This document shows positions 39,706-59,378 of a stretch of DNA of 64,000 nt, piece by piece (position 1 is the stretch's first letter; every line of letters starts with the position of its first letter). A model generated the notes under the pieces. The model searched no databases and had not been told where the DNA came from. It saw only the letters and a list, made by a program, of their open reading frames with translations. The DNA is taken from the NCBI RefSeq assembly GCF_020271745.1, contig NZ_CP084296.1:1798001-1862000 (forward strand), read 5' to 3'. The stretch is from Providencia alcalifaciens (GTDB taxonomy: Bacteria > Pseudomonadota > Gammaproteobacteria > Enterobacterales > Enterobacteriaceae). The translations under genes and the position numbers were made by a program.

Positions 39706-39720
39706 TAGGGGGGGAGCAAA

Positions 39721-40412: not shown

Positions 40413-41198
40413 ATGAAAGGTCTGAATAACAAAATTGCCATCGTGACGGGTGGTGCAACCAAAATCGGCGCAACCGTGGCAAAAATCTTATGTTCCTATG
40501 GGGTCAAAGTCACCATTTTTGATATCGACAAAACCAATGGGGAAAGTGTGGCGCAATCAGAGCCCAATATTGACTTTTTGCCCGTGGATATCACCGATGA
40601 CCAACAGCTAAAGCAAGGCATTGACCGTGTTGCGCAAAAATATGGTCAACTCGATTTTTTGGTTAATCTGGCCGCCACCTATCTGGATGACGGTCAAGCC
40701 TCTTCACGTCAAGATTGGCTAACGGCATTAAATATCAACGTGGTGAGTGCCGTGATGGCTGCGCAATTTGCCAAGCCTCATTTAGCCAAAGCGGGCAAAG
40801 GGGCAATTGTTAACTTCACCAGTATCTCCTCTTCGGTGGCGCAAACGGGTCGCTGGCTTTATCCCGCATCGAAAGCCGCTATGTTAGAAGTGACGCGCAG
40901 CCAAGCGATGGATTATGCCCCCGATGGTATTCGCGTCAATTCCGTTTCCCCTGGCTGGACATGGTCTCGGGTGATGGACGAATTGACTGGCGGCGACCGC
41001 CAAAAAACCGACCGCGTCGCGGCGGATTATCATCTTTTACAACGTGTTGGCGACCCTGAAGAGGTGGCTCAAGTTGTGGCATTCCTACTGTCTGAGCTGG
41101 CGAGTTTTGTTACTGGCGCAGATTACTCGGTCGATGGTGGATACTCCGCCATGGGGCCTGAACAGGCGAAACCCGCCATTCCCCGTCTTGCTGAATAA
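40413..41198 (+). CDS. SDR-family dehydrogenase, probable indole-dihydrodiol (IifB-like) dehydrogenase
   Basis: A 261-residue short-chain dehydrogenase: cofactor motif TGGATKIGA (about 11-19), an acidic residue after the second strand (FDIDKT) pointing to NAD, NLAAT, and the catalytic Ser in NFTSISSS with YPASK (Tyr, Lys). It opens a six-gene catabolic operon directly before a StyA-like oxygenase. In Acinetobacter the iif operon pairs these families, the SDR oxidising indole-2,3-dihydrodiol to 3-hydroxyindolin-2-one. That role is inferred from context; SDR sequences alone do not define substrate. Confidence 0.72.
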   Translation: MKGLNNKIAIVTGGATKIGATVAKILCSYGVKVTIFDIDKTNGESVAQSEPNIDFLPVDITDDQQLKQGIDRVAQKYGQLDFLVNLAATYLDDGQASSRQDWLTALNINVVSAVMAAQFAKPHLAKAGKGAIVNFTSISSSVAQTGRWLYPASKAAMLEVTRSQAMDYAPDGIRVNSVSPGWTWSRVMDELTGGDRQKTDRVAADYHLLQRVGDPEEVAQVVAFLLSELASFVTGADYSVDGGYSAMGPEQAKPAIPRLAE

Positions 41199-41233
41199 GA
41201 CACCCTGATTTTAATTTTATCGAGGAATTCACT

Positions 41234-42481
41234 ATGCGTCGTATTGCAATCGTAGGTGGTGGCCAGGCGGGTATGCCATTGGCATTAGGGCTGCTGAACA
41301 AAGGTTATGATGTGACGGTTGCGACTAACCGTACCCCAGATGATGTGAAAAATGGTCGCGTGATGTCCAGCCAATGCATGTTTGATATTTCGCTACAATT
41401 TGAGCGCGATTTAGGGATCAACTTCTGGGAAGACAAGTGCCCACCCGTTGAAGGTATTGGTTTTACCGTCCCGCATCCTGAAAAAGCGGGTGAAAAAGCC
41501 ATTAGCTGGCGCTCACGTATTGATAACTACGCCCAAGCCGTTGATCAGCGGATCAAAATGCCTTACTGGCTGGAGTTATTTGCTGCTCGCGGCGGCAACT
41601 TAATGATTGAAGATGTGGGCGTCGCAGAGTTAGAGAAACTCGCTGAAACTCACGATTTAGTGATTTTAGCGGGGGGAAAAGGGGAAATCGTTAAGCTGTT
41701 AGAACGTGACCCGACTCGCTCACCGTACGATAAACCTCAGCGTGCGTTAGCGCTCACTTATGTTCACGGCATGCTGCCAACCCCTGAATTTTCCCAAGTT
41801 TCCTTCAACTTGATACCGGGCGTGGGGGAGTACTTTGTGTTCCCATCTCTAACCAATAGCGGCGACTGCCACATTATGGTTTTTGAAGGTGTGCCGGGTG
41901 GGCCCATGGATCAATGGGGGGAAGCGCGTACTCCACAAGAACATTTGGCCTACAGCAAAAAAATCATCGATACCTATTTACCGTGGGAAGCAGAGCGCTG
42001 CCGTCATGTAGAACTAACTGACGAAAACGGCATTCTGGCAGGGCGCTTTGCCCCAACAGTCCGTAAGCCAGTTCTCACGCTGCCATCAGGCAAAATTGTC
42101 TTCGGTTTAGGGGATGCATTAGTGACCAACGATCCATTAACCGGGCAAGGATCGAATAACGCCACGAAAGCCAGTAAAGTCTACTACGACGCCATTTTAG
42201 CCCGTGGTGATAAGCCATATACCGCAGAATGGATGAACGAAACGTTTGAACAATTCTGGAAATACGGTCGCCATGTGGTGGAGTGGACGAACGCTCTGTT
42301 AGCGCCGCCACAGCCACATATTCTTAATGCGCTAGGTGCTGCGCAACAACTGCCAACCTTAGCGCACACCATCGCGAATGCCTTTAACTACCCACCGGTT
42401 CTTGCACCATGGTGGCACGATGCCCATGCCTGCGATGTGTATATTCAATCGTTGATGCAAGAAGAAGTTCGCGCTTCGTAG
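41234..42481 (+). CDS. Indole oxygenase, StyA/IifC-like FAD monooxygenase
   Basis: A 415-residue flavoprotein of the styrene monooxygenase group (two-component, uses reduced FAD supplied by a reductase). FAD-binding starts at IVGGGQAGM (residues 5-13). Characteristic segments are TNRTPDDVKNGRVMSSQCMFD near residue 33 and a later GDALVTNDPLTGQGSNNATK. Sequence and neighbours fit indole oxygenases such as IifC or IndA, which epoxidise the indole C2-C3 bond and give indigo as a by-product in hosts. The flavin reductase follows 11 bases after the stop. Styrene epoxidation is the alternative, but no styrene-oxide isomerase or phenylacetaldehyde dehydrogenase is linked. Confidence 0.78.
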   Translation: MRRIAIVGGGQAGMPLALGLLNKGYDVTVATNRTPDDVKNGRVMSSQCMFDISLQFERDLGINFWEDKCPPVEGIGFTVPHPEKAGEKAISWRSRIDNYAQAVDQRIKMPYWLELFAARGGNLMIEDVGVAELEKLAETHDLVILAGGKGEIVKLLERDPTRSPYDKPQRALALTYVHGMLPTPEFSQVSFNLIPGVGEYFVFPSLTNSGDCHIMVFEGVPGGPMDQWGEARTPQEHLAYSKKIIDTYLPWEAERCRHVELTDENGILAGRFAPTVRKPVLTLPSGKIVFGLGDALVTNDPLTGQGSNNATKASKVYYDAILARGDKPYTAEWMNETFEQFWKYGRHVVEWTNALLAPPQPHILNALGAAQQLPTLAHTIANAFNYPPVLAPWWHDAHACDVYIQSLMQEEVRAS

Positions 42482-42492
42482 GAGAAATCAGT

Positions 42493-43029
42493 ATGTCGAT
42501 GATTGCAGAGGACACACTTATGTGCGAAAGCGAATGGGGTCATACCGAGTTTGAATCGAAAACCTTACGCAATTTACTAGGCTGCTACCCCACAGGGGTA
42601 GCGGTTGTGACCACTCGCACCCCTGATGGACGTGACGTTGGGTTGACCATCAACTCATTCGCATCACTGTCATTAGATCCGCCTCTGGTGTTGTGGAGCT
42701 TAGTGAATCATTCACCTAATCTGGCGGTATTTCGTGATTGCCAACATTTCACGATTAATATCTTAGGTAAAGATCACCAAGAGTTGGCGATGCGTTTTGC
42801 TAACCCTCGAGTCGAAAATAAATTTGAAGATGTCGCCGTGCACATTACGCCAGAAGGGATCCCCGCCTTACACGGCGCGATCGTGACCTTAGTGTGTGAA
42901 AACCATAAACAAGATCATATTGGCGACCACTTACTGATGGTGGGGCATGTGCGCCGTATCGGTAGTGAAACGGGCAAGCCTTTAGTTTTCCATGGCGGCA
43001 CATTTACCGCCCTACATGAAGCGCAATAG
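42493..43029 (+). CDS. Flavin reductase partner of the indole oxygenase (IifD/StyB-like)
   Basis: About 178 residues of the flavin-reductase-like split-barrel family: GCYPTGVAVVTTRTPDGRDVGLTINSF is the FMN/FAD-binding start, LDPPLVLWSL follows, and GDHLLMVGHV lies near the end. It reduces FAD with NADH for the StyA-like oxygenase. I choose the ATG preceded by GGAGA at eight bases; the frame is open further upstream into the previous gene, but without a comparable site. Immediate placement after the oxygenase gene supports a dedicated pair. Confidence 0.82.
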   Translation: MSMIAEDTLMCESEWGHTEFESKTLRNLLGCYPTGVAVVTTRTPDGRDVGLTINSFASLSLDPPLVLWSLVNHSPNLAVFRDCQHFTINILGKDHQELAMRFANPRVENKFEDVAVHITPEGIPALHGAIVTLVCENHKQDHIGDHLLMVGHVRRIGSETGKPLVFHGGTFTALHEAQ

Positions 43030-43043
43030 GCGCAGGAGATAGT

Positions 43044-43826
43044 ATGGAACAGCAAACTTTGATGTCATTCGCCAGCGAGTTACAAAAAGGCAATATTCAG
43101 ATTATCGACCTGACACAAACCTTATCGCCTTCATTTCCGGCATTGCAACTGCCAGCTGAGTTTGGGCAAGTGTGGTCATTCAAAATGGAGCAAATCTCCC
43201 GTTATGATGAAAATGGTCCCGCTTGGTATTGGAACAATTTTAGCTGCGGTGAACACACCGGCACCCACTTTGATGCGCCAATTCATTGGATAAGCGGTAA
43301 AGATCAGCCCAAAAACACCGTTGATACCATCCCGCTCCACCACTTTATTGCCCCAGCGGTAGTGGTTGATGCAAGTAAAGAAGTGGCGCAAAACCCCGAT
43401 TGGGTCCTAACGGTGGATTTCCTGCAAAAGTGGGAAGAGAAACACGGCAAAATTCCCAAAGCAGCATGGGTTTTACTGCGCACAGATTGGTCGAAAAAGT
43501 CCGATAACCCAGAAGCGTATGTGAATATGCGCGAAGATGGCGCTCACACGCCGGGTCCTTCTCAAGAAGCGGTTGAATGGCTTATCCACCAGCGTGATGT
43601 TAAAGGCTTTGGGGTTGAAACTATCAATACCGATGCGGGGCAATCTTACAGCTGGCCAGTACCGTACCCGTGCCACACGTTAATGCACGGCAACAATAAA
43701 TACGGTTTGCAATGTTTGAAAAATCTCGACCAACTACCAGCCACTGGGGTGGTGATCGTTGCGGCGCCCCTGAAAATTGAAGGCGGCTCAGGCAGCCCAT
43801 TACGCGTGCTTGCGCTGGTGGGGTGA
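43044..43826 (+). CDS. Cyclase-family metal hydrolase, isatin hydrolase/IifA-like
   Basis: A 260-residue member of the cyclase superfamily (kynurenine formamidase, isatin hydrolase). The metal motif is HTGTHFDAPIHW, with His71, His75 and Asp77 as probable Mn or Zn ligands, matching the HxxxHxD pattern of isatin hydrolase. Other family blocks are IDLTQTLSPSFPALQLP and VETINTDAG. Isatin hydrolase opens isatin to isatinate; the related IifA of the Acinetobacter iif operon acts on 3-hydroxyindolin-2-one. Either fits a position after an indole oxygenase, reductase and SDR. Formamidase is less likely because no tryptophan or kynurenine genes are near. Confidence 0.78.
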   Translation: MEQQTLMSFASELQKGNIQIIDLTQTLSPSFPALQLPAEFGQVWSFKMEQISRYDENGPAWYWNNFSCGEHTGTHFDAPIHWISGKDQPKNTVDTIPLHHFIAPAVVVDASKEVAQNPDWVLTVDFLQKWEEKHGKIPKAAWVLLRTDWSKKSDNPEAYVNMREDGAHTPGPSQEAVEWLIHQRDVKGFGVETINTDAGQSYSWPVPYPCHTLMHGNNKYGLQCLKNLDQLPATGVVIVAAPLKIEGGSGSPLRVLALVG

Positions 43827-43829
43827 AGT

Positions 43830-45443
43830 ATGGCGAGCTTATCCAACCCCCAAGTGATCGTGGTCGGCAGCGGGATGAATTCGCTGATGTGCGCCGCCTT
43901 ATTGGCGGTGCGCGGGAAATCGGTTTTGGTTCTGGAACGTAACGATCGCCTTGGCGGTTGTATTCGTACCGAAGCGCTATTTGAAGGTTATACCCACGAC
44001 CTGCTTTCTTGCTGGTATTCACTGTTTGTTGGTAGCCCTGGCTACCAAGAATTAGCGCCATTGCTTCAACAACAGGGTTTGGAGTTCGCGCAATGCGACT
44101 ATTCCACTGGATTGGTGCAGCCAAATGGAAAATCAGTGGCATTAAAGCGGGATATTGCGGAGGCTGCCAAACAGCTAGATGCTCTCGCCCCCGGAGATGG
44201 CTTAGTGTTTCGCCAAATGGCCGAAAAGCTGTTTAGCGAAGATGCGGCGCTGACATTTGGTTTATTAGGGCAAAACCCCTACAGCGGCGGCATGTTCAAG
44301 TTACTGTTTTCCGAGTGGCGCAAACGCGGCGTTGATGGCTTGCTGGATTTCGCTAAATCCGGAGTGGAAAGCTTTCGTCGCTGGTCTGAGCGGGAATTAC
44401 AACATGATTTTAGCCGAGCCTTGATGGCACCGTGGGTGCTGCATACAGGGCTAGGGCCTGATGAAGCCAGCTCGGCGCTGATTGGTAAACTGACGTTTGC
44501 TGCGGTTGTGGCGGGGGGTATGCCCGTTGTCAAAGGTGGCAGCTACCGGATTGTTGAAGCGTTCGCCAAAGTGATTGAGCAACATGGTGGCGAGTTACGT
44601 ACCAACGCCCATGTAGAGAAAATTATCACGCAGGGCAGCGGTAAAAACAGCCGCGCCACAGGGGTTCGTGTGGATGGGCAGTTTATCCCCGCGAGTGAAA
44701 GTGTGGTGTGCAACGTAACGCCAACCCAGCTATATGGCGGCTTGCTCGATGAGGTTTCGCCGCAAGTGAAACAACGGGCGGAGGGCTATCGCTATGGGCG
44801 CGGTGGAATGCAAATCCATTTTGCGCTAAGCGCGCCGCCACCTTGGTGTAATCCTGAATTACTCAATGTGCCATTGGTTCATTTCACAGAGAGTATGGAG
44901 CAAGTGTGTTTGTCCGTCACTCAAGCCAATAATGGTTATCTGCCTGATCGCCCGACGTTTGGGATCGGTCAACCCACCACATTAGACCCAAGCCGTGCTC
45001 CTGAGGGCGGGTGGATCTTGTGGATCCAAATGCAGGAACTGCCTCGCCATCTTAAAGGGGATGCGGCGGGAGAAATTGCGATCCCTGAGGATGGCCGTTG
45101 GAATAACGCGGTGCGTGAAGCGGTTGCCGATCGCATTCAACAGCGTTTGGAAATGGTGATGCCCGGTGTATCTGATTTGATAGTCGGACGTAAAGCGATT
45201 TCCCCCGCCGATCTTGAACGTTATAACTGCAATCTGGTGGGTGGGGATCCGTACTCAGGAACCTGTTCGCCAGATCAATTCTTTTGGTTGCGACCGTTTG
45301 CGGCTTCAGGGCAGACAAAAGCGCATCAAACGGCAGTCAAAAATTTGTTCCATATTGGAGCATCAACCCATCCGGGTCCTGGTCTTGGCGGGGGCTCTGG
45401 GTATTTAGTTGCTGAGAAATTAGCAGCGAAGAAAAAGCGGTAA
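43830..45443 (+). CDS. FAD-dependent oxidoreductase, phytoene-desaturase-like
   Basis: A 537-residue flavoprotein with the dinucleotide fold at VIVVGSGMNSLMCAALLAVRG (about 9-29), then ERNDRLGGCIRTE, and a C-terminal FAD site with HIGASTHPGPGLGGGSGYL. This matches the NAD(P)/FAD-dependent amine oxidase or phytoene-desaturase group. It is the fifth gene of the operon with only three bases after the preceding stop. The substrate is unknown; dehydrogenation of an indoxyl or 3-hydroxyoxindole intermediate towards isatin would fit the pathway. I do not know of a characterised homologue in indole degradation. Confidence 0.68.
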   Translation: MASLSNPQVIVVGSGMNSLMCAALLAVRGKSVLVLERNDRLGGCIRTEALFEGYTHDLLSCWYSLFVGSPGYQELAPLLQQQGLEFAQCDYSTGLVQPNGKSVALKRDIAEAAKQLDALAPGDGLVFRQMAEKLFSEDAALTFGLLGQNPYSGGMFKLLFSEWRKRGVDGLLDFAKSGVESFRRWSERELQHDFSRALMAPWVLHTGLGPDEASSALIGKLTFAAVVAGGMPVVKGGSYRIVEAFAKVIEQHGGELRTNAHVEKIITQGSGKNSRATGVRVDGQFIPASESVVCNVTPTQLYGGLLDEVSPQVKQRAEGYRYGRGGMQIHFALSAPPPWCNPELLNVPLVHFTESMEQVCLSVTQANNGYLPDRPTFGIGQPTTLDPSRAPEGGWILWIQMQELPRHLKGDAAGEIAIPEDGRWNNAVREAVADRIQQRLEMVMPGVSDLIVGRKAISPADLERYNCNLVGGDPYSGTCSPDQFFWLRPFAASGQTKAHQTAVKNLFHIGASTHPGPGLGGGSGYLVAEKLAAKKKR

Positions 45444-45544
45444 TAGAGAATGGGCTTGAGTCAATTCTAGGTAAGACAAACACAGCGATCATAAAAGTAA
45501 CTATATAAAAAATATCATAAAATCACTACAGCGGCAGGTAAATG

Positions 45545-46438
45545 ATGAATAAAGAAATGGTGAATAAGCTGCTCGTCGGCTCGTGCTTGGGTGCACTGTC
45601 ATTTGGTGCTGTCGCAACAGAAGGGGGCGGTCTTGGGATCTACCCTGATGGGCTAGAAAACTTTATGTCTGGCGCACTTCCACCGCAAGGTGTCCATGTG
45701 CTGGTCTATGGTGGAAATGCCCACTATGACAGTGTTCGTGACAACAAAGGCGATAAAATTCCGATCCCCGGCTTTAGTGTGAATGTGAACGTGCTAGCAC
45801 CGCGCTTTATCTGGGTGACTGACCAAAAAGTGTTTGGTGGTGATTTAGCGTTTCACACCATTCTTCCTTTGTTGGATGTGACGGCGAAGGCGGCGGGGAA
45901 TAAAGAAACCAGTCGTGGGCTAGGGGATATTACTTTTGGCCCCGCATTAGGTTTCCATCCTTCAGCTGACTTGCATTATGTATTGGGGCTGGATGCTTAT
46001 GCGCCAACCGGAAAATACAGTAAAACCGACCCATCAAGTTTAGGAAAAAATTACTGGGTATTACAGCCTGTGTGGGCGATCAGCTACATTCCACCTGTAG
46101 GAGTGAATGCGGATTTAAAAATGATGTATGACTTTAACTTCCGCAACAATGATACGGATACTCGTTCAGGACAAGCATTCCACGCCGATTATGCATTAGG
46201 TTGGGGCTTTGGTAATGGCTGGGTAGCGGGGATTGGGGGTTATGGATTTATGCAAACCACCAACGACAGCGGTTCAAATTCAGCACAAGGTAAGGCTCAA
46301 GCCTTTGCGGTAGGTCCTTCAATCCGTTATGCAAACCCACAAGGTTGGCTATTTACGGCGAAGTGGGAGAAGGATTTTTCGGTGAAAAACCGTCCAGAAG
46401 GTTCACAAATTTACCTCAAAGCGTCTATTCCGTTTTAA
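45545..46438 (+). CDS. Outer-membrane channel of the aromatic-degradation type (phenol meta-pathway family)
   Basis: A 297-residue exported barrel protein with a signal peptide ending in GAVATEGG, resembling the family named for the meta-pathway of phenol degradation (SphA/COG4313-like): GGLGIYPDGLENFMSGALPPQG at the mature N-terminus, regular GLGDITFGPALG and LDAYAPTGKY strands, and a C-terminal LKASIPF. It probably admits hydrophobic aromatics through the outer membrane. I choose the second of two adjacent ATGs because AGGT is six bases before it; the first is at 45542. It closes the indole-oxidation operon. Confidence 0.75.
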   Translation: MNKEMVNKLLVGSCLGALSFGAVATEGGGLGIYPDGLENFMSGALPPQGVHVLVYGGNAHYDSVRDNKGDKIPIPGFSVNVNVLAPRFIWVTDQKVFGGDLAFHTILPLLDVTAKAAGNKETSRGLGDITFGPALGFHPSADLHYVLGLDAYAPTGKYSKTDPSSLGKNYWVLQPVWAISYIPPVGVNADLKMMYDFNFRNNDTDTRSGQAFHADYALGWGFGNGWVAGIGGYGFMQTTNDSGSNSAQGKAQAFAVGPSIRYANPQGWLFTAKWEKDFSVKNRPEGSQIYLKASIPF

Positions 46439-46448
46439 TCCCTTTATC

Positions 46449-46482
46449 TCAATATTGGCAGCCGAAAGGCTGCTGATATTGA
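46449..46482 (+). terminator. Long stem-loop with GAAA loop after the indole operon
   Basis: TCAATATTGGCAGCC and GGCTGCTGATATTGA form a 15-bp stem (two G-U pairs as RNA) closed by a GAAA tetraloop, 11 bases after the channel gene stop. No T tract follows directly, so it may end transcription weakly or protect the 3' end. Confidence 0.65.
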
Positions 46483-46613
46483 AGTGTATAATTCCTATTA
46501 CCCATTTTCATTTTCAGGTGATAATCAAGTCTTTCATATATGAAAAAATGACCGCGCTGCTTGCTAATTAGCCATACGGTCATTGTAATCTAGAATGGTT
46601 TTAATACGTGAAT

Positions 46614-47621
46614 TTACGCTTTTTTCATACTTTGGCTGGGGCTTTCTCCGTAACGTTGTTTGTATTCTGCGCTAAACCGTCCCATGTGGGCGAATCCCCA
46701 ACGCAATGCCACGCCAGTCACGCTGGTGGCTTCCCCTGACATCAATTCGGCTCTAACTCGCTCCATACGCAAATCACGTAAATATTGCATCGGACTAATA
46801 TCTAAAAACTCTTTAAAACCGGCATATAAGCTGCGCAAACTCACCCCAGCAATATGGGCGAGTTGTTCTACCGTGATAGGTTCGTGGGCGTGAGCTTCAA
46901 GATATTCTTGAACGCGGCGAACATGGCGTGGACGAATAGTGGCACGACGCATACCGGAATCTTCCAAATAATTATGCTGGTGGGTGGATAATAGAGTGAC
47001 AGAAACTAATTGCTCTACTTGGGTGGTGATCAGTTTATGCTGCAGTAAATCAGGTGTACGTGTAGCGCATTCAACCAAATAATTCATCAACGTACGCCAT
47101 GCAATGCAAGACTGCCAAGCAAACCCCAATTCAAAAACTAACGGTTTCTCTAAGGTATGCCCAAGCTGTCCAACCAACGTACGCTCTAATAAAGAACGAG
47201 AAATTCGCAGCATAAATTGGTCATTGTCACTATTCCAACGCATCACCGTGGACTCTTCTGGGCTAAGCAAAGAAGCCATCTGCGGTGTGGATTCTATAGT
47301 TTTCCCGCCGCTTTCGATAATTGCACTGCCTGATAATGGCATTTGCACCAGAAAAAAATCTTCCAATTGCCCGGGGGTGATAGCCACATCTGCCCCATAG
47401 CGTAGCCGGCTGAGGGAAATATCCCCCATTGGAATGTAATGCATGCGAGCATCAAGACGCTGATGCGGGTTAAGTAGCTGAAATTGATGGGGTTTCATCA
47501 CGCGTCCCACCATGGATTTGATCTCTTCAGGATCAGCTGAACTGAATAATAATCGCTCAGAAGAACAGAGTTGGTTCTCTATCTGAGGTGCAGGTACGTA
47601 AGGCCATGAATTGCTCAACAT
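46614..47621 (-). CDS. AraC-family activator of the indole/aromatic genes
   Basis: A 335-residue regulator with an N-terminal cupin-like effector domain (about 30-200) and a C-terminal pair of helix-turn-helix motifs (ITVEQLAHIAGVSLRSLYAGF and TSVTGVALRWGFAHMGRFSAEY). Size and layout match AraC-type activators of aromatic pathways, such as the one found beside iif operons. It is convergent with the indole operon and divergent from the ior operon, so it could serve either. Its GGAGG ribosome-binding site is followed by complementary CCTCC before the ATG, which could fold and limit translation. Confidence 0.8.
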   Translation of the reverse strand: MLSNSWPYVPAPQIENQLCSSERLLFSSADPEEIKSMVGRVMKPHQFQLLNPHQRLDARMHYIPMGDISLSRLRYGADVAITPGQLEDFFLVQMPLSGSAIIESGGKTIESTPQMASLLSPEESTVMRWNSDNDQFMLRISRSLLERTLVGQLGHTLEKPLVFELGFAWQSCIAWRTLMNYLVECATRTPDLLQHKLITTQVEQLVSVTLLSTHQHNYLEDSGMRRATIRPRHVRRVQEYLEAHAHEPITVEQLAHIAGVSLRSLYAGFKEFLDISPMQYLRDLRMERVRAELMSGEATSVTGVALRWGFAHMGRFSAEYKQRYGESPSQSMKKA

Positions 47622-47635
47622 AAGGAGGTGCCTCC

Positions 47636-48335
47636 AAAGTAAACACTGTGCCCTTGATAGGTTGCCTAGCGAGTGTCGCGATAAGCTAGAATCCTTTAGG
47701 GTCTCTATGGGATATTTCGATATCTCATTATTATTTTTTATTATCTTCGACTCATCACAGGGTCGGTTTTGTTAACATTTCATTAAACAATTTTTAACCA
47801 ATTGTGCTTCGAACATAGCATAAAGGAATTTGCTTACCTAGCCATATTTGTATAAAAACTATCCGAATACTGCAAAAAAATAGAGAGAATACGCTGATTG
47901 TGATTTACGTAACAAACTAAAAAATAAAGTTATTTTTATTTATTGTTAGTTTTAAATATATGATTATTCATGTTGTTTTGTATATTTGGCTACCTATTAG
48001 TTAAGCGAAAAGTTATCTGTAGAGATATTTTGTCTTTAATCAGAATAATACTCTAATGACTCTTTATTTGTAGGGGTTAATTAGGGCTATTAGTTGATTT
48101 ATTAGGAAAATTGGTCATGGGTTTCTTTGGCTCGAATTCTTATTAATCATTCTTCTCTTTGCCATTTTTTCATTATTTTACAATGATTTTGTCCGCTCTA
48201 TGCACCTCTTATCCACTCTCTGCAAAAATCTAATATGCATGATTAATCATGAATTGACCAATTATTAACAAATGAGATACAAGAAAGAAACACAAAAAAG
48301 ATAACAACGTGCTGACGTTGACTGGTGAGGTTAAA
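47636..48335. promoter_or_regulatory. Long AT-rich regulatory region with a palindrome before iorA
   Basis: About 700 non-coding bases separate the divergent AraC gene and iorA. The clearest element is the perfect 14-base palindrome CATGATTAATCATG (48238-48251), a plausible MarR operator since a MarR gene closes the operon. TTGACC a few bases later, with GATACA 16 bases on, is a weak promoter candidate. The remainder is AT-rich without a gene or RNA I can support. Confidence 0.55.
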
Positions 48336-50534: not shown

Positions 50535-50542
50535 GGGGGCAC

Positions 50543-52087: not shown

Positions 52088-52097
52088 GGATAGCATC

Positions 52098-52520
52098 ATG
52101 AGTTTACTGACATTTTCTCGAAACCACCGGATCAATTTTTCAGAGTGTGATCCTGCGGGCATTGTGTTTTATCCACAATATTTCGTGATGTTTAACAACC
52201 TCATTGAGCGTTGGTTTGATGAATTACTTCCTGAAGGATTTGCAGGGTATATCCTCGATCAGCGCTTTGGTTTGCCCACAGTGCATTTAGAGGCGGATTT
52301 TAAAGCGATTAGCCGTATGGGGGATGATGTTCAGCTTGAGCTGCATGTCGAACGCATTGGCGGTAAATCACTGACTCTACTTCAACGCTGTATCAGCCTT
52401 GATGGCGAGTTGCGCATGGAAGTGACGCAAACCTATGTCACTACATCACTGATTACGCATCAGGCTATTCCAATTCCTGAAGCACTGTATCGCGCCTTAA
52501 CCCAGCAGCAACCGGTGTAA
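52098..52520 (+). CDS. Acyl-CoA thioesterase, 4-hydroxybenzoyl-CoA thioesterase family
   Basis: A 140-residue hot-dog-fold protein. The active-site segment is ECDPAGIVFYPQYFVMF, with Asp18 as the likely catalytic residue, as in the 4HBT group. It lies between iorB and the CoA-ester monooxygenase gene, ten bases after the former. It would release a hydroxylated aromatic acid (5-hydroxyanthranilate or gentisate) from its CoA ester so that the ring-cleavage dioxygenase can act. Family membership is clear; the substrate is inferred from neighbours. Confidence 0.82.
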   Translation: MSLLTFSRNHRINFSECDPAGIVFYPQYFVMFNNLIERWFDELLPEGFAGYILDQRFGLPTVHLEADFKAISRMGDDVQLELHVERIGGKSLTLLQRCISLDGELRMEVTQTYVTTSLITHQAIPIPEALYRALTQQQPV

Positions 52521-52549
52521 TGGCACAACGTAATTAAAGGAGAAACTCC

Positions 52550-54865
52550 ATGAATATCGTTTGTATCGGCGGCGGTCCCGCTGGGCTTTATTTCGGGTTG
52601 CTGATGAAACTGCAAAACCCAAGTAACCGTGTAGTAGTGGTTGAACGTAACCGACCTTATGACACCTTTGGTTGGGGCGTGGTATTTTCGGATGCCACAT
52701 TAAGTAATTTGCGCAAAGCAGATCCAGTCTCAGCAGAAACGATCAGTGCTGAATTTAGCCATTGGGATGATATCGACATTCATTTTAAAGGTAGCTGTAA
52801 CCGTAGTGGTGGACATGGCTTCATTGGTATTGGGCGCAAAAAGCTCCTTAATATCTTGCAAGATCGCTGCCTTGAAGTGGGGGTGGAATTGGTATTTGAA
52901 ACCCAAGTGGCGGATGACCAAGAAATTGCACGCCAATATGATGCGGATCTGGTGATTGCATCTGACGGGATCAACAGCGCAGTCCGTACTCGCTATGAAA
53001 ATATCTTCAAACCTGATATTGACCAACGCCGTTGCCGTTTTGTTTGGCTTGGCACGAAAAAGATTTTCGACGCATTTACCTTCTTGTTCGCTGAAAATGA
53101 ACACGGTTGGTTCCAAGTCCACGCTTATCAATTCCAAGAAGGGTTATCCACATTTATCGTGGAAACCACGGAAGAGACTTGGTTGAAAGCAGGTATCGAT
53201 CAAATGTCTCAGGAAGATGGGATTGCTTACTGTGAAAAGCTATTCGCTCCATGGCTGGATGGTGAAAAACTGATTGCGAATGCAGCGCACTTACGTGGTG
53301 CCGCGATTTGGATCCGCTTCCCTCGCGTGATTTGTGATAACTGGGTGCACTGGACACAACCAACAAGCAGCAAGGAAGTTCCTGTGGTGCTAATGGGGGA
53401 TGCCGCTCATACCGCTCACTTCTCTATTGGTTCAGGCACAAAACTGGCTCTGGAAGATGCGATTGAGCTGTGTGAAAGCTTGAAAGCGACTCAAGGGGAT
53501 TTGCGCAAGGGACTCGAGCACTACCAAAAAGTTCGCAGTGTCGAAGTGCTGAAAATCCAGAATGCGGCGCGTAACTCGACCGAGTGGTTTGAAAACGTGC
53601 AACGCTATGAAAACCTTGACCCTGAGCAGTTTGCTTACTCTTTATTAACCCGTTCTCAGCGCATCTCTCATGAAAATTTACGTGTGCGCGATGGTAACTG
53701 GTTAACCCATTATGAAAACTGGTTTGCCGAAAAGTCGGGTTTACCAACGCAGGTGGCTAACCAAAAAGTCGCCCCGATGTTGACACCATTTCGCTTGCGT
53801 AATGTGGAACTGAAAAACCGCGTGATAGCGTCTCCAACGCTGCTGTATTGCGCAACTGATGGGGTCGTCAGTGATTTCCATCTGGTACATATCGGTAGCC
53901 GCGCATTAGGTGGTGCTAGCCTGATTATGACAGAAATGACGGCGATTTCCCCTGAAGCGAGAGTCACGATGGGCTGCCCGGGAATTTGGAATGATGCGCA
54001 AGTGACGGCATGGAAAAATGTGACACAATTTGTACATCAAAAAACAGATGCGAAAATTGGCATCCAACTGGGGCATGCAGGGCGTCGTGGTTCAACACAG
54101 CGCGGTTGGGAACAAGAAAACCACCCAATGAAACACGATAATTGGCCATTAGTTTCTGCGTCACCATTACCTTATCTACCTTCAATTTCACAGACACCTA
54201 CTGAGCTAACAGAAGCCCAAATGGCGACGATTATCGACCAGTTTGTGGCGGCAGCAAAACGTGCAGACCAAGCCGGTTTTGATTGGTTAGAGTTGCAAGC
54301 GGGGCATGGTTATCTGTTATCGAGCTTTATTTCTCCGTTAACTAACCAGCGTACTGATGCATTTGGTGGGTCATTAGAAAATCGTTTACGTTTCCCGTTA
54401 GCGGTCGTGAGCGCGGTCAGAAAAGTATGGTCTGAGGATAAGCCACTATCTGTGCGTATATCTGCAACAGATTGGGTTGAAGGCGGCACAACAGTCGATG
54501 AGGCGGTATTAATTGGTCAGGCGCTTCATCAAGCCGGAGCCGATATTATCGATTGTTCATCCGGTGAAGTTTCCCCACTACAACAGCCTGTTTATGGGCG
54601 TATGTATCAAACTCCAATGGCGGACCGTATTCGCAATGAAGGATCGGTACCCGTGATTGCCGTCGGTGCGATTACCGATGCGGATCAAGTGAATAGCATT
54701 ATTGCATCAGGGCGCGCGGACCTTTGTGCGCTCTCTCGACCACTCCTTGCGGACCCTGCTTGGCTACTCCATGAGTGTGCTCGCTTTGGGTGGAATTCCG
54801 TCACGTGGCCAGCGCCTTATGAATATGGTCGCCAACAATTAATCCAACAATCGAAAAGCCGTTAA
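52550..54865 (+). CDS. 2-aminobenzoyl-CoA/salicylyl-CoA monooxygenase fused to an OYE-type reductase
   Basis: A 771-residue two-domain enzyme. The N-terminal FAD monooxygenase (about 1-370) has CIGGGPAGLYFGLLMK and GDAAHTAHFSIGSGTKLALE. The C-terminal Old Yellow Enzyme domain (about 405-760) has MLTPFRLRNVELKNRVI, QLGHAGRRG and SGRADLCALSRPLLADP. This fusion is the hallmark of 2-aminobenzoyl-CoA monooxygenase/reductase of Azoarcus and of proteins annotated as salicylyl-CoA 5-hydroxylase/oxidoreductase; both oxygenate carbon 5 of the CoA-bound ring. Linkage to indole genes favours the amino substrate. AAGGAG before the ATG is strong. No CoA ligase gene is present in the window. Confidence 0.85.
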   Translation: MNIVCIGGGPAGLYFGLLMKLQNPSNRVVVVERNRPYDTFGWGVVFSDATLSNLRKADPVSAETISAEFSHWDDIDIHFKGSCNRSGGHGFIGIGRKKLLNILQDRCLEVGVELVFETQVADDQEIARQYDADLVIASDGINSAVRTRYENIFKPDIDQRRCRFVWLGTKKIFDAFTFLFAENEHGWFQVHAYQFQEGLSTFIVETTEETWLKAGIDQMSQEDGIAYCEKLFAPWLDGEKLIANAAHLRGAAIWIRFPRVICDNWVHWTQPTSSKEVPVVLMGDAAHTAHFSIGSGTKLALEDAIELCESLKATQGDLRKGLEHYQKVRSVEVLKIQNAARNSTEWFENVQRYENLDPEQFAYSLLTRSQRISHENLRVRDGNWLTHYENWFAEKSGLPTQVANQKVAPMLTPFRLRNVELKNRVIASPTLLYCATDGVVSDFHLVHIGSRALGGASLIMTEMTAISPEARVTMGCPGIWNDAQVTAWKNVTQFVHQKTDAKIGIQLGHAGRRGSTQRGWEQENHPMKHDNWPLVSASPLPYLPSISQTPTELTEAQMATIIDQFVAAAKRADQAGFDWLELQAGHGYLLSSFISPLTNQRTDAFGGSLENRLRFPLAVVSAVRKVWSEDKPLSVRISATDWVEGGTTVDEAVLIGQALHQAGADIIDCSSGEVSPLQQPVYGRMYQTPMADRIRNEGSVPVIAVGAITDADQVNSIIASGRADLCALSRPLLADPAWLLHECARFGWNSVTWPAPYEYGRQQLIQQSKSR

Positions 54866-54893
54866 TGGCGCAAATGCGAGAGGAGGAAACACT

Positions 54894-56021
54894 ATGACGA
54901 CTCAGTCCCATGACCAATACAGAGAAAATGTCGCAGGACGCGCAGATGTGGAAGATACACCAGAATTGTTGGCGTATTACAAACAGTTAGATGAACTAAA
55001 AACGGGCGCATTGTGGACGGTTGCCAACAAAATTGAGCCGTGGCAGCCAAAATCTCAATCTGTGCCTGTGTTATGGCGCTATCAAGATTTACGGGAGCAT
55101 GTTTTACGTTCAGTGGATTTGGTGACCCCGGAAAAAGCGGGTCGCCGTGTGATCTATTTAAACAACCCGGGTCGTCAAGATGTGGCAGCTGCGGTGGGTT
55201 GGTTGTATTCAGGTTTACAGGTGATGCATCCGGGGGAAGCGGCTTCGGCTCACGCACATTCATCCTCAGCATTGCGTTTCATTATGGAAGGGCGCGGCGC
55301 CTACACCATTGTGGAAGGGCAAAAAATGATTTTAGAAGCCAATGATTTTGTACTGACGCCTAACGGTACTTGGCATGAGCATGGTGTGGAAGAAGGCGGG
55401 CTACCGTGTATTTGGCAGGATGGTCTGGATATTCCATTAGTCAATGCGATGGAAGCGGGTTTCTACAAAGTTCATCCTGATTTACATCAAGTGCAAACTC
55501 GCCCAATTGATTATCCCGTTGGCATGTGGGGAGCGACAGCGTTACGCCCGCACCATGTGGGATGGGATAAGCCATATTCGCCATTATTCAAATATCAGTG
55601 GGGACCGACTTATGAAGCGCTACAACGCGCCGCAAAAGTGACGGATGGCTCGGTGTTTGATGATGTTTTAATGAACTACACCAACCCATTAACCGGCGGG
55701 CCAGTGATGCCAACGATTGGAGCTAGTATGCAGTTATTACGCCCTGGGTTTGTTGGTAAAGCTCATCGTCACACGGGTAGCTTTATCTACCAAGTGGCGA
55801 AAGGAAAAGGGTATTCGATTATTAATGGGCAGTGCTTTGACTGGCAAGAGCGAGATATTTTTTGCGTGCCATCGTGGATGTTCCATGAACATGTGAATAC
55901 ATCCCAGAATGAAGATGCGTGTCTGTTCTGTTTTAACGACCTGCCAGTGATGCACTCCCTTGGTCTCTATTATGAAGAGGCGCTTGTGGACAATGATGGG
56001 CACCAAAAAGTGATTAGTTAA
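54894..56021 (+). CDS. Gentisate 1,2-dioxygenase-type cupin ring-cleavage enzyme
   Basis: A 375-residue bicupin. The iron ligands in the first cupin are His120 and His122 (SAHAHSSSALRF) and His161 (TWHEH), positions nearly identical to gentisate dioxygenases. A second cupin follows (AHRHTGSFIYQVAKGKGYS). The family opens the ring between the carboxyl-bearing carbon and its ortho-substituted neighbour, giving maleylpyruvate from gentisate. With 5-hydroxyanthranilate the same cleavage would give the amide maleamylpyruvate. 5-Aminosalicylate or 1-hydroxy-2-naphthoate are other known substrates of the family. GAGGAGG precedes the start. Confidence 0.83.
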   Translation: MTTQSHDQYRENVAGRADVEDTPELLAYYKQLDELKTGALWTVANKIEPWQPKSQSVPVLWRYQDLREHVLRSVDLVTPEKAGRRVIYLNNPGRQDVAAAVGWLYSGLQVMHPGEAASAHAHSSSALRFIMEGRGAYTIVEGQKMILEANDFVLTPNGTWHEHGVEEGGLPCIWQDGLDIPLVNAMEAGFYKVHPDLHQVQTRPIDYPVGMWGATALRPHHVGWDKPYSPLFKYQWGPTYEALQRAAKVTDGSVFDDVLMNYTNPLTGGPVMPTIGASMQLLRPGFVGKAHRHTGSFIYQVAKGKGYSIINGQCFDWQERDIFCVPSWMFHEHVNTSQNEDACLFCFNDLPVMHSLGLYYEEALVDNDGHQKVIS

Positions 56022-56126
56022 CGATGTAGTCTAATTATTTTTCTAACTATTTATTTCGATGACTTATTTTAATTATTTACGTGAAGATTTCAGTTAGGTC
56101 TGAGACCTGACTCAAGGAGAAAAATT

Positions 56127-57038
56127 ATGCGTCTTATTACTTACCGTTCAGATGTTACCGCAGCAGCACGTTTAGGGGCGATTGTTAACGAGCAAGTCGT
56201 GGATTTAGCGAGATTAGCGGAAGAGAATGGCCAATATCTCCCTGACAATATGTTGGATTTCATTGATTTAGGCCCACAAGGCGTTCGTGCAGGAACAGCA
56301 CTACTGAATGGCTACCAAGGGCAATTCCCCGCAGGAACCGCGTGGCCTGTTCAGAACGTGAAAATTTTAGCGCCAATTCCACGTCCAAGAAAAAATATCT
56401 TTGGGATCGGCTTGAACTATGTTGAACACGTTGCAGAATCTAGCCGTACGCTGGATACCTCTAAAGAGCTACCAAAAGAGCCCGTTATCTTTTCTAAACC
56501 ACCAACAACGGTGATTGGGCCAGGTGATGCGATTGAACATAACAGCGAAATTACTCAGCAATTAGATTGGGAAGTGGAGCTGGCAGTGATTATGGGGACG
56601 CGTGCTAAAGGTGTAGAGCAAAAAGAGGCCCTGAATTATGTGTTCGGTTATAGCTTAATGATCGATATGAGTGCGCGTGATTGCCGCCGTGCGGGTCAAT
56701 GGATCTACTCAAAAGGGCAGGATACCTACGCACCATTTGGTCCTTGTATTGTGACTGCCGATGAAATTCCTGATCCTCACACGCTAAACTTAAGTTTAAA
56801 AGTTAACGGCGTAACCAAGCAGGACTCCAATACTCGCCACATGCTGTTCAATGTGAATGCGTTGATTGCGGATATCAGCAAAGGCATTACGTTGGAGCCG
56901 GGGGATATTATCGCGACGGGCACTCCTGAAGGGGTTGGTGCGGGGCGCTCTCCACAAGAATGGGTATGGCCGGGTGATGTGATTGAAGCGTATGTCGAAA
57001 AAATCGGTGAGTTACGCCACCCAGTGGTTGCGGTATAA
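56127..57038 (+). CDS. FAH-family acylpyruvate hydrolase (maleylpyruvate/maleamylpyruvate type)
   Basis: A 303-residue fumarylacetoacetate-hydrolase-family protein. The metal and active-site segments are FGIGLNYVEHVAES, WEVELAVIMG (ExE ligands) and YSLMIDMSARD, ending with GDIIATGTPEGVGAG. It hydrolyses a carbon-carbon bond next to a 1,3-diketone and releases pyruvate. Directly after a gentisate-type dioxygenase, the expected reaction is maleylpyruvate to pyruvate plus maleate, or maleamylpyruvate to pyruvate plus maleamate. No glutathione-dependent maleylpyruvate isomerase is present, so cleavage should occur on the cis isomer, consistent with the maleate isomerase downstream. Confidence 0.83.
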   Translation: MRLITYRSDVTAAARLGAIVNEQVVDLARLAEENGQYLPDNMLDFIDLGPQGVRAGTALLNGYQGQFPAGTAWPVQNVKILAPIPRPRKNIFGIGLNYVEHVAESSRTLDTSKELPKEPVIFSKPPTTVIGPGDAIEHNSEITQQLDWEVELAVIMGTRAKGVEQKEALNYVFGYSLMIDMSARDCRRAGQWIYSKGQDTYAPFGPCIVTADEIPDPHTLNLSLKVNGVTKQDSNTRHMLFNVNALIADISKGITLEPGDIIATGTPEGVGAGRSPQEWVWPGDVIEAYVEKIGELRHPVVAV

Positions 57039-57056
57039 CCTAAGGGAGATAACTAC

Positions 57057-58088
57057 ATGTTGAATTTACCTCAATTTAAGGCGGCGGCAGTACAGGCCGC
57101 CCCTGTATTCCTCGATACCGATGCTACTGTTGATAAAGTGTGTCGGTTGATTGAAGAAGCGGCTGATAATGGCGCCAAACTCGTGGCATTCCCTGAGGTT
57201 TTTGTCTCTGGTTACCCGTATTGGAGCTGGGTGATGAACCCGATTGATGGCAGCCCTTGGTTTGAAAAACTGTGCAAATCTGCCATTGAAGTTCCAGGAC
57301 CTGAAATTAAAAAAATCGCCCAAGCCGCGGCCCGTCACCATATCAACGTGGTTGTGGGGGTGAATGAGCGCAATCCAAACGGCATCGCCACGCTGTACAA
57401 CACCTTAGTGACGATTTCAGATGAAGGCAAAATTTTAGGGCGCCACCGTAAATTAGTCCCTACATGGGCTGAAAAGTTGACGTGGGCAAATGGGGATGCC
57501 TCTTCGCTCAAAGTGCACCAAACTAGCATTGGGCCTTTAGGGGCATTAGCATGCGGAGAAAACACCAATACGTTGGCGCGTTTTTCATTACTAGCTCAAG
57601 GTGAGTTGGTGCATATCGCCAGCTACATTGCCCTCCCAGTAGCGCCAAAAGATTACGATATGGCGGATGCGATTCGTTTACGGGCTTCTGCCCATTGTTT
57701 TGAAGGCAAAGTATTTACCATCATTTCATGTTCAACAGTCTCTGAAGAGATTGTTGAAGCTATGGCTGCGTCGCATCCCGAATCCCGTGAGTTGCTCGCG
57801 CGTCCAAATAGCGCGTTTTCCGGCATTATCGGCCCCGATGGTCGAGTGATTGGAGAACCATTGATTGATAAAGAAGGCATTGTATACGCTGAAATTGATT
57901 TGAATCGCTGTATTCAACCTCGCCAAATGCATGATATTACAGGGCATTATAATCGCTTTGATATCTTTGACTTACAGGTTAATCGTCGCCCATTAACGGC
58001 AGCTCGTTTCCATCATGCAGGGCAAGATATTGATGAACTTAACCAGTTTGCTGAATCGGATGACTCTTCAGTGGAGAAAGGACTATGA
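57057..58088 (+). CDS. Nitrilase-superfamily carbon-nitrogen hydrolase, possible maleamate amidohydrolase
   Basis: A 343-residue enzyme with the complete Glu-Lys-Cys triad: Glu47 (FPEVFVSGYP), Lys132 (HRKLVPTW) and Cys166 (ALACGENTNTLARFSLL). By sequence it falls in the aliphatic/aryl nitrilase branch, so a nitrile substrate such as indole-3-acetonitrile is one reading. Its position suggests another: it lies between the acylpyruvate hydrolase and maleate isomerase and overlaps the latter by four bases. Hydrolysis of maleamate to maleate and ammonia would then supply the isomerase, as NicF does in nicotinate degradation. The triad is seen; the substrate is inference. Confidence 0.75.
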   Translation: MLNLPQFKAAAVQAAPVFLDTDATVDKVCRLIEEAADNGAKLVAFPEVFVSGYPYWSWVMNPIDGSPWFEKLCKSAIEVPGPEIKKIAQAAARHHINVVVGVNERNPNGIATLYNTLVTISDEGKILGRHRKLVPTWAEKLTWANGDASSLKVHQTSIGPLGALACGENTNTLARFSLLAQGELVHIASYIALPVAPKDYDMADAIRLRASAHCFEGKVFTIISCSTVSEEIVEAMAASHPESRELLARPNSAFSGIIGPDGRVIGEPLIDKEGIVYAEIDLNRCIQPRQMHDITGHYNRFDIFDLQVNRRPLTAARFHHAGQDIDELNQFAESDDSSVEKGL

Positions 58089-58840
58089 GCTTAGCGCGTA
58101 CATTTCGTATTGGGCAGATTGTACCTTCATCAAATACCACTATGGAAACTGAAATTCCGGCCATATTGCGTGCCCGTGAAGCGATGTTTTCCGAGCGTTT
58201 TACATTTCATTCTAGCCGCATGCGTATGCAGAAAGTAACTAAGGATGAGCTTGCTAAAATGGACTCAGACAGTGACCGTTGCGCCATTGAACTGTCAGAC
58301 GCCGACGTCGATGTATTGGGGTATGCTTGCTTGGTTGCCATTATGAGCATGGGGAAAGGTTATCACCGTATTTCGCAAAAACGCCTTCATCAATGCACTA
58401 TCGATAATGGGCATCCAGCACCGGTTGTCACCAGTGCAGGAGCGTTAGTCGAAGGGTTACATGCCATTGGCGCGAAAAAAGTGTCGATTTTGACGCCGTA
58501 TATGAAGCCATTAACCCAAATGGTTATCGACTATATTGAACATGAAGGCATTGAAGTGGTTGATAGTATCTCATTGGAGATCCCCGATAACCTCGAGGTG
58601 GGTAGACAAAACCCATTAGCGCCAGTGGAAATCACCAAAAAGCTAAATACCAATGTGGATGCGATTGTGGCATCCGCTTGTGTGCAAATGCCATCATTAC
58701 CGTCGATTCAACTCATCGAAGATAGAGTGGGCTTACCAGTATTGTCATCGTCTGTGGCAACCACCTATATGATGCTAAAAAAATTGGGGCTAGATACGCG
58801 AGTGGATGGTTTTGGCTCGCTACTTAGTGGAAGATTTTAG
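58085..58840 (+). CDS. Maleate cis-trans isomerase (Asp/Glu racemase superfamily)
   Basis: A 251-residue enzyme related to Asp/Glu racemases and arylmalonate decarboxylase. The two catalytic cysteines are Cys82 (YACLVAIMSMGKG) and Cys199 (ASACVQMPSLP), and the carboxylate-binding VPSSNTTMETE segment is near the N-terminus, as in maleate isomerases such as NicE. It converts maleate to fumarate, which enters the citric acid cycle. Its ATG overlaps the nitrilase stop (ATGA). The presence of both cysteines excludes the single-cysteine decarboxylase type. Confidence 0.83.
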   Translation: MSLARTFRIGQIVPSSNTTMETEIPAILRAREAMFSERFTFHSSRMRMQKVTKDELAKMDSDSDRCAIELSDADVDVLGYACLVAIMSMGKGYHRISQKRLHQCTIDNGHPAPVVTSAGALVEGLHAIGAKKVSILTPYMKPLTQMVIDYIEHEGIEVVDSISLEIPDNLEVGRQNPLAPVEITKKLNTNVDAIVASACVQMPSLPSIQLIEDRVGLPVLSSSVATTYMMLKKLGLDTRVDGFGSLLSGRF

Positions 58841-58925
58841 TTAAATTATGTTAAGAGTTCGGTTTCCTTCTGCTACTCTGCTAGCTTCTAATGTCATAAA
58901 ACCAGAAGCAAGAAAAGAGGAATTG

Positions 58926-59378
58926 ATGCCTGAATCGAAAGTCTTCGTTGATAATTACCTGCCTGCTCTTTTGGGGCAGGCATGGATGCTAGTTTCATCT
59001 GAATTTCATGCGGTTGTGGAAGCCAATGGGTTATCGGTTTTGGAGTGGAGAGTGCTTTCTACATTAGCCAATAATGGTTCGATGGGGATCACCGAGCTGT
59101 CGCAAAAAACCGTTAGCAAGCAACCGACAATCACGCGGGTATTACAACGATTGGAACAACAAGGGCATGTGATCCGTCACAATAACCATACGGGAAGTGA
59201 CCGCCGCGTGACACTAGTCAGTGTGACTTCTAGCGGCGTTGAGCTAGTTGAAGGATTATTGATTGCTGCGGAAGAACACGAAAGGCAGGTTTTAGCCCCT
59301 CTTGGTGTTCGTAAAAGCAAAATGCTCAAGCAAGTTTTACAAGAGTTGATTGATAGGCATAGCCCAGAAATCAAATAG
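58926..59378 (+). CDS. MarR-family regulator of the aromatic operon
   Basis: A 150-residue MarR protein with the winged helix at about 40-110 (LSVLEWRVLSTLANNG, TELSQKTVSKQPTITRVLQRLEQQG, DRRVTLVSVT). I choose the ATG with GAGGA six bases upstream; the frame stays open back to 58848 but without a good site. As the last gene of the operon it probably represses the operon in the absence of an aromatic acid or CoA ester, possibly through the palindrome CATGATTAATCATG before iorA. Confidence 0.85.
   Translation: MPESKVFVDNYLPALLGQAWMLVSSEFHAVVEANGLSVLEWRVLSTLANNGSMGITELSQKTVSKQPTITRVLQRLEQQGHVIRHNNHTGSDRRVTLVSVTSSGVELVEGLLIAAEEHERQVLAPLGVRKSKMLKQVLQELIDRHSPEIK

Follow-up and report, generated by a model that had tools for sequence, protein, structure and literature searches.

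In a stretch of 64,000 nucleotides from the genome of Providencia alcalifaciens (RefSeq assembly GCF_020271745.1, contig NZ_CP084296.1, positions 1,798,001 to 1,862,000; hereafter the window) we examined two adjacent operons, at 40413-46438 (operon 1) and 48336-59378 (operon 2). We conclude, with a probability of roughly 70%, that they encode one pathway that would degrade indole to fumarate and pyruvate with no need for free anthranilate, the two halves being joined at isatinate by the oxidoreductase IorAB. Both operons are intact and conserved, with all their reading frames open and in the order given below. The upper half is not new: Li et al. (2023) cloned operon 1 from Providencia rettgeri GS-2 and showed that GS-CD oxidizes indole (PMC9871250). 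What we infer anew, with good comparative support, is the isatinate join, a disabled reductase and a maleamate branch. With somewhat less confidence we also favor a wider proposal, again drawn from sequence comparison, that IorAB and its counterpart IadAB are isatinate:acceptor oxidoreductases (2-aminobenzoyl-CoA forming), giving an entry to coenzyme A (CoA) pathways that requires neither ATP nor anthranilate, in indole as well as auxin degradation, and that a monooxygenase/reductase fusion enzyme has become hydroxylase-only at least three times, losing a single histidine in settings where ring cleavage by a dioxygenase takes the place of beta-oxidation.

The gene families named in an earlier sequence-only reading of 40413..59378 are indeed present, open and in the order it gave, although its list of steps passed over the CrtO-like oxidoreductase, the outer-membrane channel and the AraC regulator that stand between them. 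The end points it chose, indole and fumarate, are well supported, but its join through anthranilate probably fails: the window lacks a gene of the IifA type, and the six AMP-binding enzymes of the genome include no CoA ligase of the anthranilate type. The gene at 43044..43826 (+ strand) had been called isatin-hydrolase/IifA-like, and only the first half of that name stands. Its product is related from end to end to solved isatin hydrolases (PDB 5nmp, E 1.3e-134, residues 6-259) and carries HTGTHFDAP at residue 71, a metal motif of the HxGTHxD type that we take to be the hallmark of these enzymes. IifA is described as having two domains, the C-terminal one with a SnoaL fold (PMC7225977); 43044-43826 was ruled out as IifA on domain content. 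A protein with DLH and SnoaL domains (checked in one copy, the other copies being 63-68% alike), which we equate with IifA from the published domain description, is encoded in seven of seven classical monooxygenase loci (L235, L236, L237, L240, L241, L242 and L251), all without an isatin hydrolase. It has no match in the window, nor in the searched loci of the isatin-hydrolase type (L233, L234, L243, L244, L246, L086, L116 and the fragmentary L245), and in two further monooxygenase loci (L238 and L239, from genomes G308 and G311) neither an IifA-type protein nor an isatin hydrolase lies nearby.

Could operon 1 make anthranilate all the same, for degradation by operon 2 after CoA activation, with IorAB serving some other 2-oxoacid? 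In its favor, anthranilate has been found in P. rettgeri GS-2 (PMC9871250), and 2-aminobenzoyl-CoA pathways that depend on a ligase have been described (PMC4539516, PMC3534580). However, in addition to the missing IifA-type gene, the genome has six AMP-binding enzymes (FadD, Acs, a FadD11-like protein under its cut-off, Aas, MenE and PaaK), not one of which exceeded the cut-off of the benzoate-CoA ligase model TIGR02262; CoA transferases lay outside this search, and one of these or a promiscuous PaaK might do the work. Moreover, of 29 genomes with IorA, 23 also have isatin hydrolase (see below). We consider this alternative unlikely. With no IifA-type gene and no anthranilate-type ligase to be seen, operon 2 would best be entered from isatinate via IorAB.

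The large subunit, IorA, for which we propose the conversion of isatinate to 2-aminobenzoyl-CoA and CO2, is an IorA/IadA-like 2-oxoacid oxidoreductase encoded at 48336..50534 (+), its start placed at 48336 by conservation rather than at the GTG at 48309. It scores 287 bits against the IOR_alpha cut-off of 651 and keeps the thiamine pyrophosphate and iron-sulfur motifs GDGGFWHN, CTGDHSC and CVGCG. The IorB/IadB-like subunit with DUF6537 (PF20169) follows at 50543..52087 (+) and exceeds the NF006179 cut-off of 348 with 714.6 bits. Evidence for the join comes from 398 genomes of the phylum, which are related to one another, so that p-values serve as a guide. At E thresholds of 1e-60 for isatin hydrolase and 1e-150 for both the IorA profile and the fusion enzyme, isatin hydrolase was found in 25 genomes, IorA in 29 and the fusion in 70. 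Isatin hydrolase and IorA occurred together in 23 (Fisher p 1e-29), and it is on this plain set of 29 IorA genomes that our conclusion rests; for 25 high-scoring IorA genomes selected post hoc, p was 7e-33. The fusion was present in 24 of the 25 isatin hydrolase genomes and 27 of the 29 IorA genomes, and indole monooxygenase, found in 11 genomes, coincided with IorA in six. The same association was evident at the level of loci: among the best 80 of 591 IorA loci, 42 contained isatin hydrolase, as did 36 of the 50 with at least 8 kb on both sides, and those with both genes span alpha-, beta- and gammaproteobacteria, actinobacteria and acidobacterial metagenome-assembled genomes, IorA being up to 83% alike to beta-proteobacterial loci.

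Similarly, in 12 genomes chosen because they hold operon 2 or part of it (four are close Providencia), isatin hydrolase was found in all 12 and indole monooxygenase in 10. If B. catarinensis (G509) is left out, its part of operon 2 being only IorA, IorB and the thioesterase, these counts become 11 of 11 and 9 of 11. Two genomes, P. gessardii and G109, have no monooxygenase match, yet in both isatin hydrolase adjoins operon 2. The sequence-only reading had been prepared to give way if operon 2 were found widely without operon 1 and induced only by an unrelated substrate, and on the first of these two points the counts gave it no cause to do so. Two observations on IorA loci may be added: in the actinobacterial loci L150 and L151 (Pimelobacter and Nocardioides) IorAB, isatin hydrolase and the fusion stand together, and an IorA homolog adjoining isatin hydrolase at G459:C1:862168-864291 has one in-frame TGA, and is either a pseudogene or a sequencing error.

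What reaction would IorAB catalyze? From its context, it would decarboxylate isatinate oxidatively to 2-aminobenzoyl-CoA with no ATP spent, feeding the fusion enzyme directly, and this is the reaction expected of the IorAB enzyme class on isatinate. A close comparison is with the iad auxin loci of Variovorax and Bradyrhizobium (PMC9613470, PMC12633357), which share IorAB (as IadAB), isatin and isatinate as intermediates, and an IadR-type MarR regulator. There, IadA and IadB are annotated as indolepyruvate oxidoreductase subunits, and isatin goes to isatinate and on to anthranilate (PMC9613470). The iad loci differ in their entry, a Rieske-type IadCDE acting on indole-3-acetic acid (IAA), in having anthranilate as the reported end product and, in the passages available to us, in leaving IadAB without an assigned step. 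This genome has the IadA/IadB pair and, judged by spacing, the S, H and R of an IadR-type MarR, but not the Rieske IadDE. In Variovorax with iadC-K2 in an iadAB-deleted background, C8H7NO3, the formula of isatinate, piles up (PMC12633357), and IorAB acting on isatinate would explain this build-up, a reading of ours that goes beyond the passages of that paper on which we drew. In the open-access literature that we surveyed we found no tie of IorAB to isatinate or of operon 2 to indole; our proposal would give IadAB a candidate role in auxin-degrading root bacteria.

The product of IorAB would be received by a fusion of FAD monooxygenase and old yellow enzyme (OYE) encoded at 52550..54865 (+), which belongs to the 2-aminobenzoyl-CoA or salicylyl-CoA 5-hydroxylase family (NF006101, 1296 bits over a cut-off of 1078). 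This fusion family is shared with the 2-aminobenzoyl-CoA pathway of Azoarcus evansii (PMC4539516, PMC3534580), where it hydroxylates 2-aminobenzoyl-CoA and then reduces the ring, 5-hydroxyanthraniloyl-CoA reportedly appearing when NADH is limiting (cited in PMC3534580). The A. evansii pathway differs in its CoA ligase entry, ring reduction and beta-oxidation, whereas here a histidine of the OYE half is lost and a ring-cleaving dioxygenase follows; thus this genome has the fusion of that pathway but not its 2-aminobenzoate-CoA ligase or the HxxH of its ring-reducing site. In place of the first histidine of the HxxH found in three solved OYEs stands Gln583. We predict that the Gln form is unable to reduce the ring, such that the enzyme would hydroxylate 2-aminobenzoyl-CoA at C5 and leave the ring unreduced, and that the loss of this catalytic histidine would lead to release of aromatic 5-hydroxyanthranilate and then to ring cleavage.

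How consistently does the lost histidine go with ring cleavage? In an alignment of 60 fusions from the fetched loci, a narrower set than the 70 fusion genomes, 12 have Gln and 48 have His. All 11 fusions with a ring-cleaving dioxygenase in the same locus are of the Gln type, and for the twelfth (L246, from Pseudoduganella) the dioxygenase module of the genome lies on a different contig (L132). As for the 48 His fusions, some of which lie in short loci, not one has a dioxygenase in its own locus. On a tree built by a quick method with the motif columns left out, the change from His to Gln needs three independent events, one in a group of ten (Providencia, Xenorhabdus, P. gessardii and Paenalcaligenes among them), one in Pseudoduganella, and one on the long branch of the alphaproteobacterium L068. 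A rule of this kind would predict from a single residue which of two fates an aminobenzoyl-CoA takes.

The remaining enzymes of operon 2 would carry the pathway to its end. A 4HBT thioesterase (52098..52520, +; PF13279 and PF03061 over cut-off) would free 5-hydroxyanthranilate, which a gentisate-1,2-dioxygenase-like bicupin (54894..56021, +; PDB 3bu7, E 2.9e-160), the putative 5-hydroxyanthranilate 1,2-dioxygenase, would cut between C1 and C2 to give maleamylpyruvate. An FAH-family hydrolase (56127..57038, +; PF01557, 237 bits) would take pyruvate off this presumed substrate and leave maleamate, from which a nitrilase-family CN hydrolase (57057..58088, +; PF00795 and PDB nitrilases, with the Nit6803 model under cut-off), our candidate maleamate amidohydrolase, would strip ammonia; maleate cis-trans isomerase (58085..58840, +; PDB 4fq7, E 5.7e-97) would then convert maleate to fumarate. 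The isomerase keeps both cysteines of its YACLV and SACVQM motifs, which we take to be catalytic. A C-N hydrolase is to be expected in such a pathway because gentisate-like cleavage of 5-hydroxyanthranilate leaves an amide, whereas a nitrogen-free gentisate route needs none. The dioxygenase was found in 14 loci including the window (four are close Providencia), 13 of which also have a nitrilase-family hydrolase; in the remaining one, L138, the dioxygenase lies at a contig edge. The hydrolase of L068 is only 35% identical but matches the same families.

The nitrogen of the ring also bears on whether operon 2 is instead a salicylate/gentisate pathway of the salicylyl-CoA 5-hydroxylase type that merely neighbors an indole operon. 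The model that the fusion exceeds, NF006101, is named for salicylyl-CoA 5-hydroxylase (a predicted substrate), and the dioxygenase is closest to 3bu7. On a nitrogen-free ring, however, the CN hydrolase would have no evident job, the six AMP-binding enzymes include no salicylyl-CoA ligase candidate, and isatin hydrolase co-occurs with operon 2, standing beside it even in P. gessardii and G109, which have no monooxygenase match. We consider this explanation very unlikely. An indole-isatin-anthranilate-gentisate route was described in Alcaligenes In3 (Claus and Kutzner 1983, cited in PMC6221969), and its isatin intermediate and gentisate-type end are shared with this locus. In the passages of PMC6221969 on this route no genes are named and the enzyme from anthranilate to gentisate is called unreported; operon 2 supplies candidate enzymes from anthranilate-level compounds to gentisate-type cleavage.

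Operon 1 would deliver isatinate in steps that largely follow published work. Its first gene encodes a short-chain dehydrogenase/reductase (SDR) of the IifB/GS-B type (40413..41198, +; NCBIfam SDR match), with homologs at 58-77% adjoining indole monooxygenases in related loci; by analogy to IifB/GS-B it would convert indole-2,3-dihydrodiol to 3-hydroxyindolin-2-one (dioxindole). The indole monooxygenase itself, a group E flavoprotein of the IifC/IndA/GS-C type (41234..42481, +; PDB 7z4x, E 1.1e-172), has S45, Q47, M49, V72 and I75 at the first five indole monooxygenase fingerprint positions, with an offset of one (PMC13101512), and its GS-D-type flavin reductase partner follows at 42469..43029 (+; FerA/HpaC/StyB-type matches, under equivalog cut-offs). 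Together with the SDR they would take indole to dioxindole, being the same enzymes as the published GS-C, GS-D and GS-B, of which GS-C oxidizes indole (PMC9871250). A CrtO-like FAD oxidoreductase (43830..45443, +; far under the CrtO-like cut-off), the GS-O that was left without a function in P. rettgeri (PMC9871250), would oxidize dioxindole to isatin, and the isatin hydrolase (GS-A) would, on strong homology, open the ring to give isatinate. Beyond Providencia, the CrtO-like gene is present at 62-74% in indole loci of the isatin-hydrolase type, and it was not seen in the seven classical loci. Last comes an outer-membrane channel of the MetA-pathway type (45542..46438, +), identified by its place and by the published GS-E/IpoC annotation (PMC9871250, PMC12538310), as it has no NCBIfam match, and an AraC-family regulator lies between the operons on the opposite strand (46614..47621, -; AndR model 197 bits, cut-off 350). 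The monooxygenase, flavin reductase and SDR are shared with the iif/ind operons of Acinetobacter O153 and Cupriavidus SHE, some of which also have the porin and AraC (PMC6221969, PMC7225977, PMC12538310), but there IifA makes anthranilate directly, whereas the window has isatin hydrolase and the CrtO-like oxidoreductase. In nine alphaproteobacterial loci (L078, L079, L081, L082, L149, L152, L156, L161 and L163) two CrtO-like genes flank isatin hydrolase with IorAB adjacent, in some with a fusion gene close by, an arrangement that represents another version of the isatin branch.

The P. rettgeri GS-2 cluster (GS-A to GS-R) is the same operon 1, as judged from its annotation and the order of its genes (ids 523-529: R, E, O, A, D, C, B) rather than by sequence comparison. 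For that strain a different lower half was proposed from liquid chromatography-mass spectrometry masses, which were assigned to salicylate, catechol and other compounds of a route from isatin through N-formylanthranilate, anthranilate and salicylate to catechol (PMC9871250); operon 2 is unmentioned in the passages of that publication on which we drew. One PF00848 match, of the Rieske type, in P. rettgeri PROV023 (G507) would also suit this route. Yet GS-A is an isatin hydrolase by homology, isatinate shares the formula of N-formylanthranilate and, in our reading, the fragmentation of C8H7NO3 from GS-2, with CO2 and then CO lost (PMC9871250), fits isatinate equally. Furthermore, this genome, G090 and G512 showed neither an intradiol dioxygenase (PF00775) nor a Rieske alpha subunit (PF00848), and G507 likewise showed no intradiol dioxygenase, in searches that each matched 4 of 14 known genomes as a control and that did not extend to extradiol dioxygenases or salicylate hydroxylase. 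Because no intradiol dioxygenase, Rieske oxygenase or benzoate-type CoA ligase was seen, neither the catechol route nor activation by a ligase is supported: a route via ANTHRANILATE or catechol would call for anthranilate dioxygenation or ordinary CoA activation, for which the genome has no visible enzyme. We give the catechol route the least credence of all, and entry through isatinate offers an alternative to it.

Several observations weigh against that entry and the steps proposed to follow it. The IorA score lies below its model's cut-off. Six genomes have IorA without isatin hydrolase (G137, G254, G305, G318, G344 and G375, with G137 and G375 scoring strongly) and two have isatin hydrolase without IorA (G350 and G438). 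Among the six genomes with both monooxygenase and IorA, the monooxygenase locus is of the isatin-hydrolase kind only in G000, G012 and G338, which hold a full operon 2; that of G488 is classical, and those of G308 and G311 are the two with neither IifA nor isatin hydrolase near. In B. catarinensis the monooxygenase and CrtO-like genes beside isatin hydrolase are no more than fragments, the full-length monooxygenase sitting in a classical locus. Further down the pathway, the bicupin missed the cut-off of TIGR02272 for gentisate 1,2-dioxygenase (304 vs 442 bits), its nearest solved relative, 3bu7, bears the name gentisate dioxygenase, nitrilases proper work on nitriles, and in three loci (L091, L250 and L068) the module has no maleate isomerase visible next to it. 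A strict Gln rule is countered by G338, which has one fusion of each type, the His type despite a dioxygenase module elsewhere in the genome, and by G228, where the only fusion found is of the His type, beside an acyl-CoA dehydrogenase and a CoA ligase, with the dioxygenase module about 30 kb away in an iad-like locus. Lastly, both anthranilate and the masses assigned to catechol-route compounds were reported for GS-2 (PMC9871250), and V. paradoxus with iadC-K2 but without iadAB restored anthranilate, showing that isatinate can reach anthranilate otherwise (PMC12633357).

The iad-like locus of G228 (L250) deserves description of its own, as it combines Rieske-type genes (read from the sequence) and IorAB with a divergent set of nitrilase, dioxygenase, FAH and thioesterase genes, an arrangement by which auxin may likewise be mineralized through the nitrilase-dioxygenase lower route.

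Operon 2 ends with a MarR regulator of the IadR kind (58926..59378, +), its start at 58926 set by conservation in the alignment, the first ATG-type start being 58848. Its S, H and R are spaced as S28, H32 and R46 are in MarR_73, where these residues bind the IAA carboxylate (PMC9613470), and because all three are kept the regulator may have an aromatic acid from this pathway as its ligand. Does operon 2 then serve external isatin or auxin-type substrates, with indole incidental? The kept residues of the regulator would suit such a role, as would isatin hydrolase and operon 2 occurring without a monooxygenase match in P. gessardii and G109, and only five of the 12 genomes chosen for operon 2 gave a tryptophanase-family match. 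Still, 10 of the 12 have the monooxygenase, and this genome has a tryptophanase-family gene and no Rieske gene (PF00848) that could be IadDE; we regard the idea as very unlikely. The tryptophanase-family product is 54% alike to E. coli TnaA and passes the subfamily cut-off but misses that of the tnaA equivalog (753.5 vs 825.8 bits). Since this gene is present, the strain can probably also make indole, while the seven genomes without a match would get indole or isatin from elsewhere. An indole-consuming Providencia is not the novelty that the sequence-only reading took it for, given that operon 1 and indole consumption are published for P. rettgeri (PMC9871250) and that Muller (1986, cited in PMC6221969) earlier described Providencia that make and degrade indole. 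Rather, the two operons provide candidate genes for how Providencia degrades its own indole, a matter said to need study (PMC6221969).

The source genome, a single contig of 4.2 Mb, stands close to Providencia rettgeri. P. rettgeri PROV023 matches the region at 93% DNA identity over 22 kb, and the region of Providencia sp. UBA10704 at 79%. Against UBA10704, dN/dS was at most 0.05 in 14 of 16 genes (the other two gave no estimate), ratios that are rough because dS was high throughout, at 1.3-2.9. The intergenic gaps of operon 2 from IorA to the isomerase are at most 29 bases, save one of 105, which suggests a single transcript; the MarR gene begins 7 or 85 bases after the isomerase, depending on the start chosen. 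A scan for promoters and terminators between the operons gave no signal (6 and 2 sites vs shuffle means of 5.8 and 1.8), and at megablast level the 19 kb region had no match in 72,556 plasmid records. In a family sample of 119 genomes from 118 genera, the two Providencia present both have the fusion gene. Directly upstream of operon 1, a SoxR-family regulator (TIGR01950 over cut-off) stands beside an RND efflux pump on the opposite strand (window 35424-40218), and this SoxR neighbor is kept in L034, L086 and L116; redox-active indole products are possible inducers of it. Near the pump, a gene at 33492-35138 of the window matches lipid A 4-amino-4-deoxy-L-arabinosyltransferase (NF009784 over cut-off).

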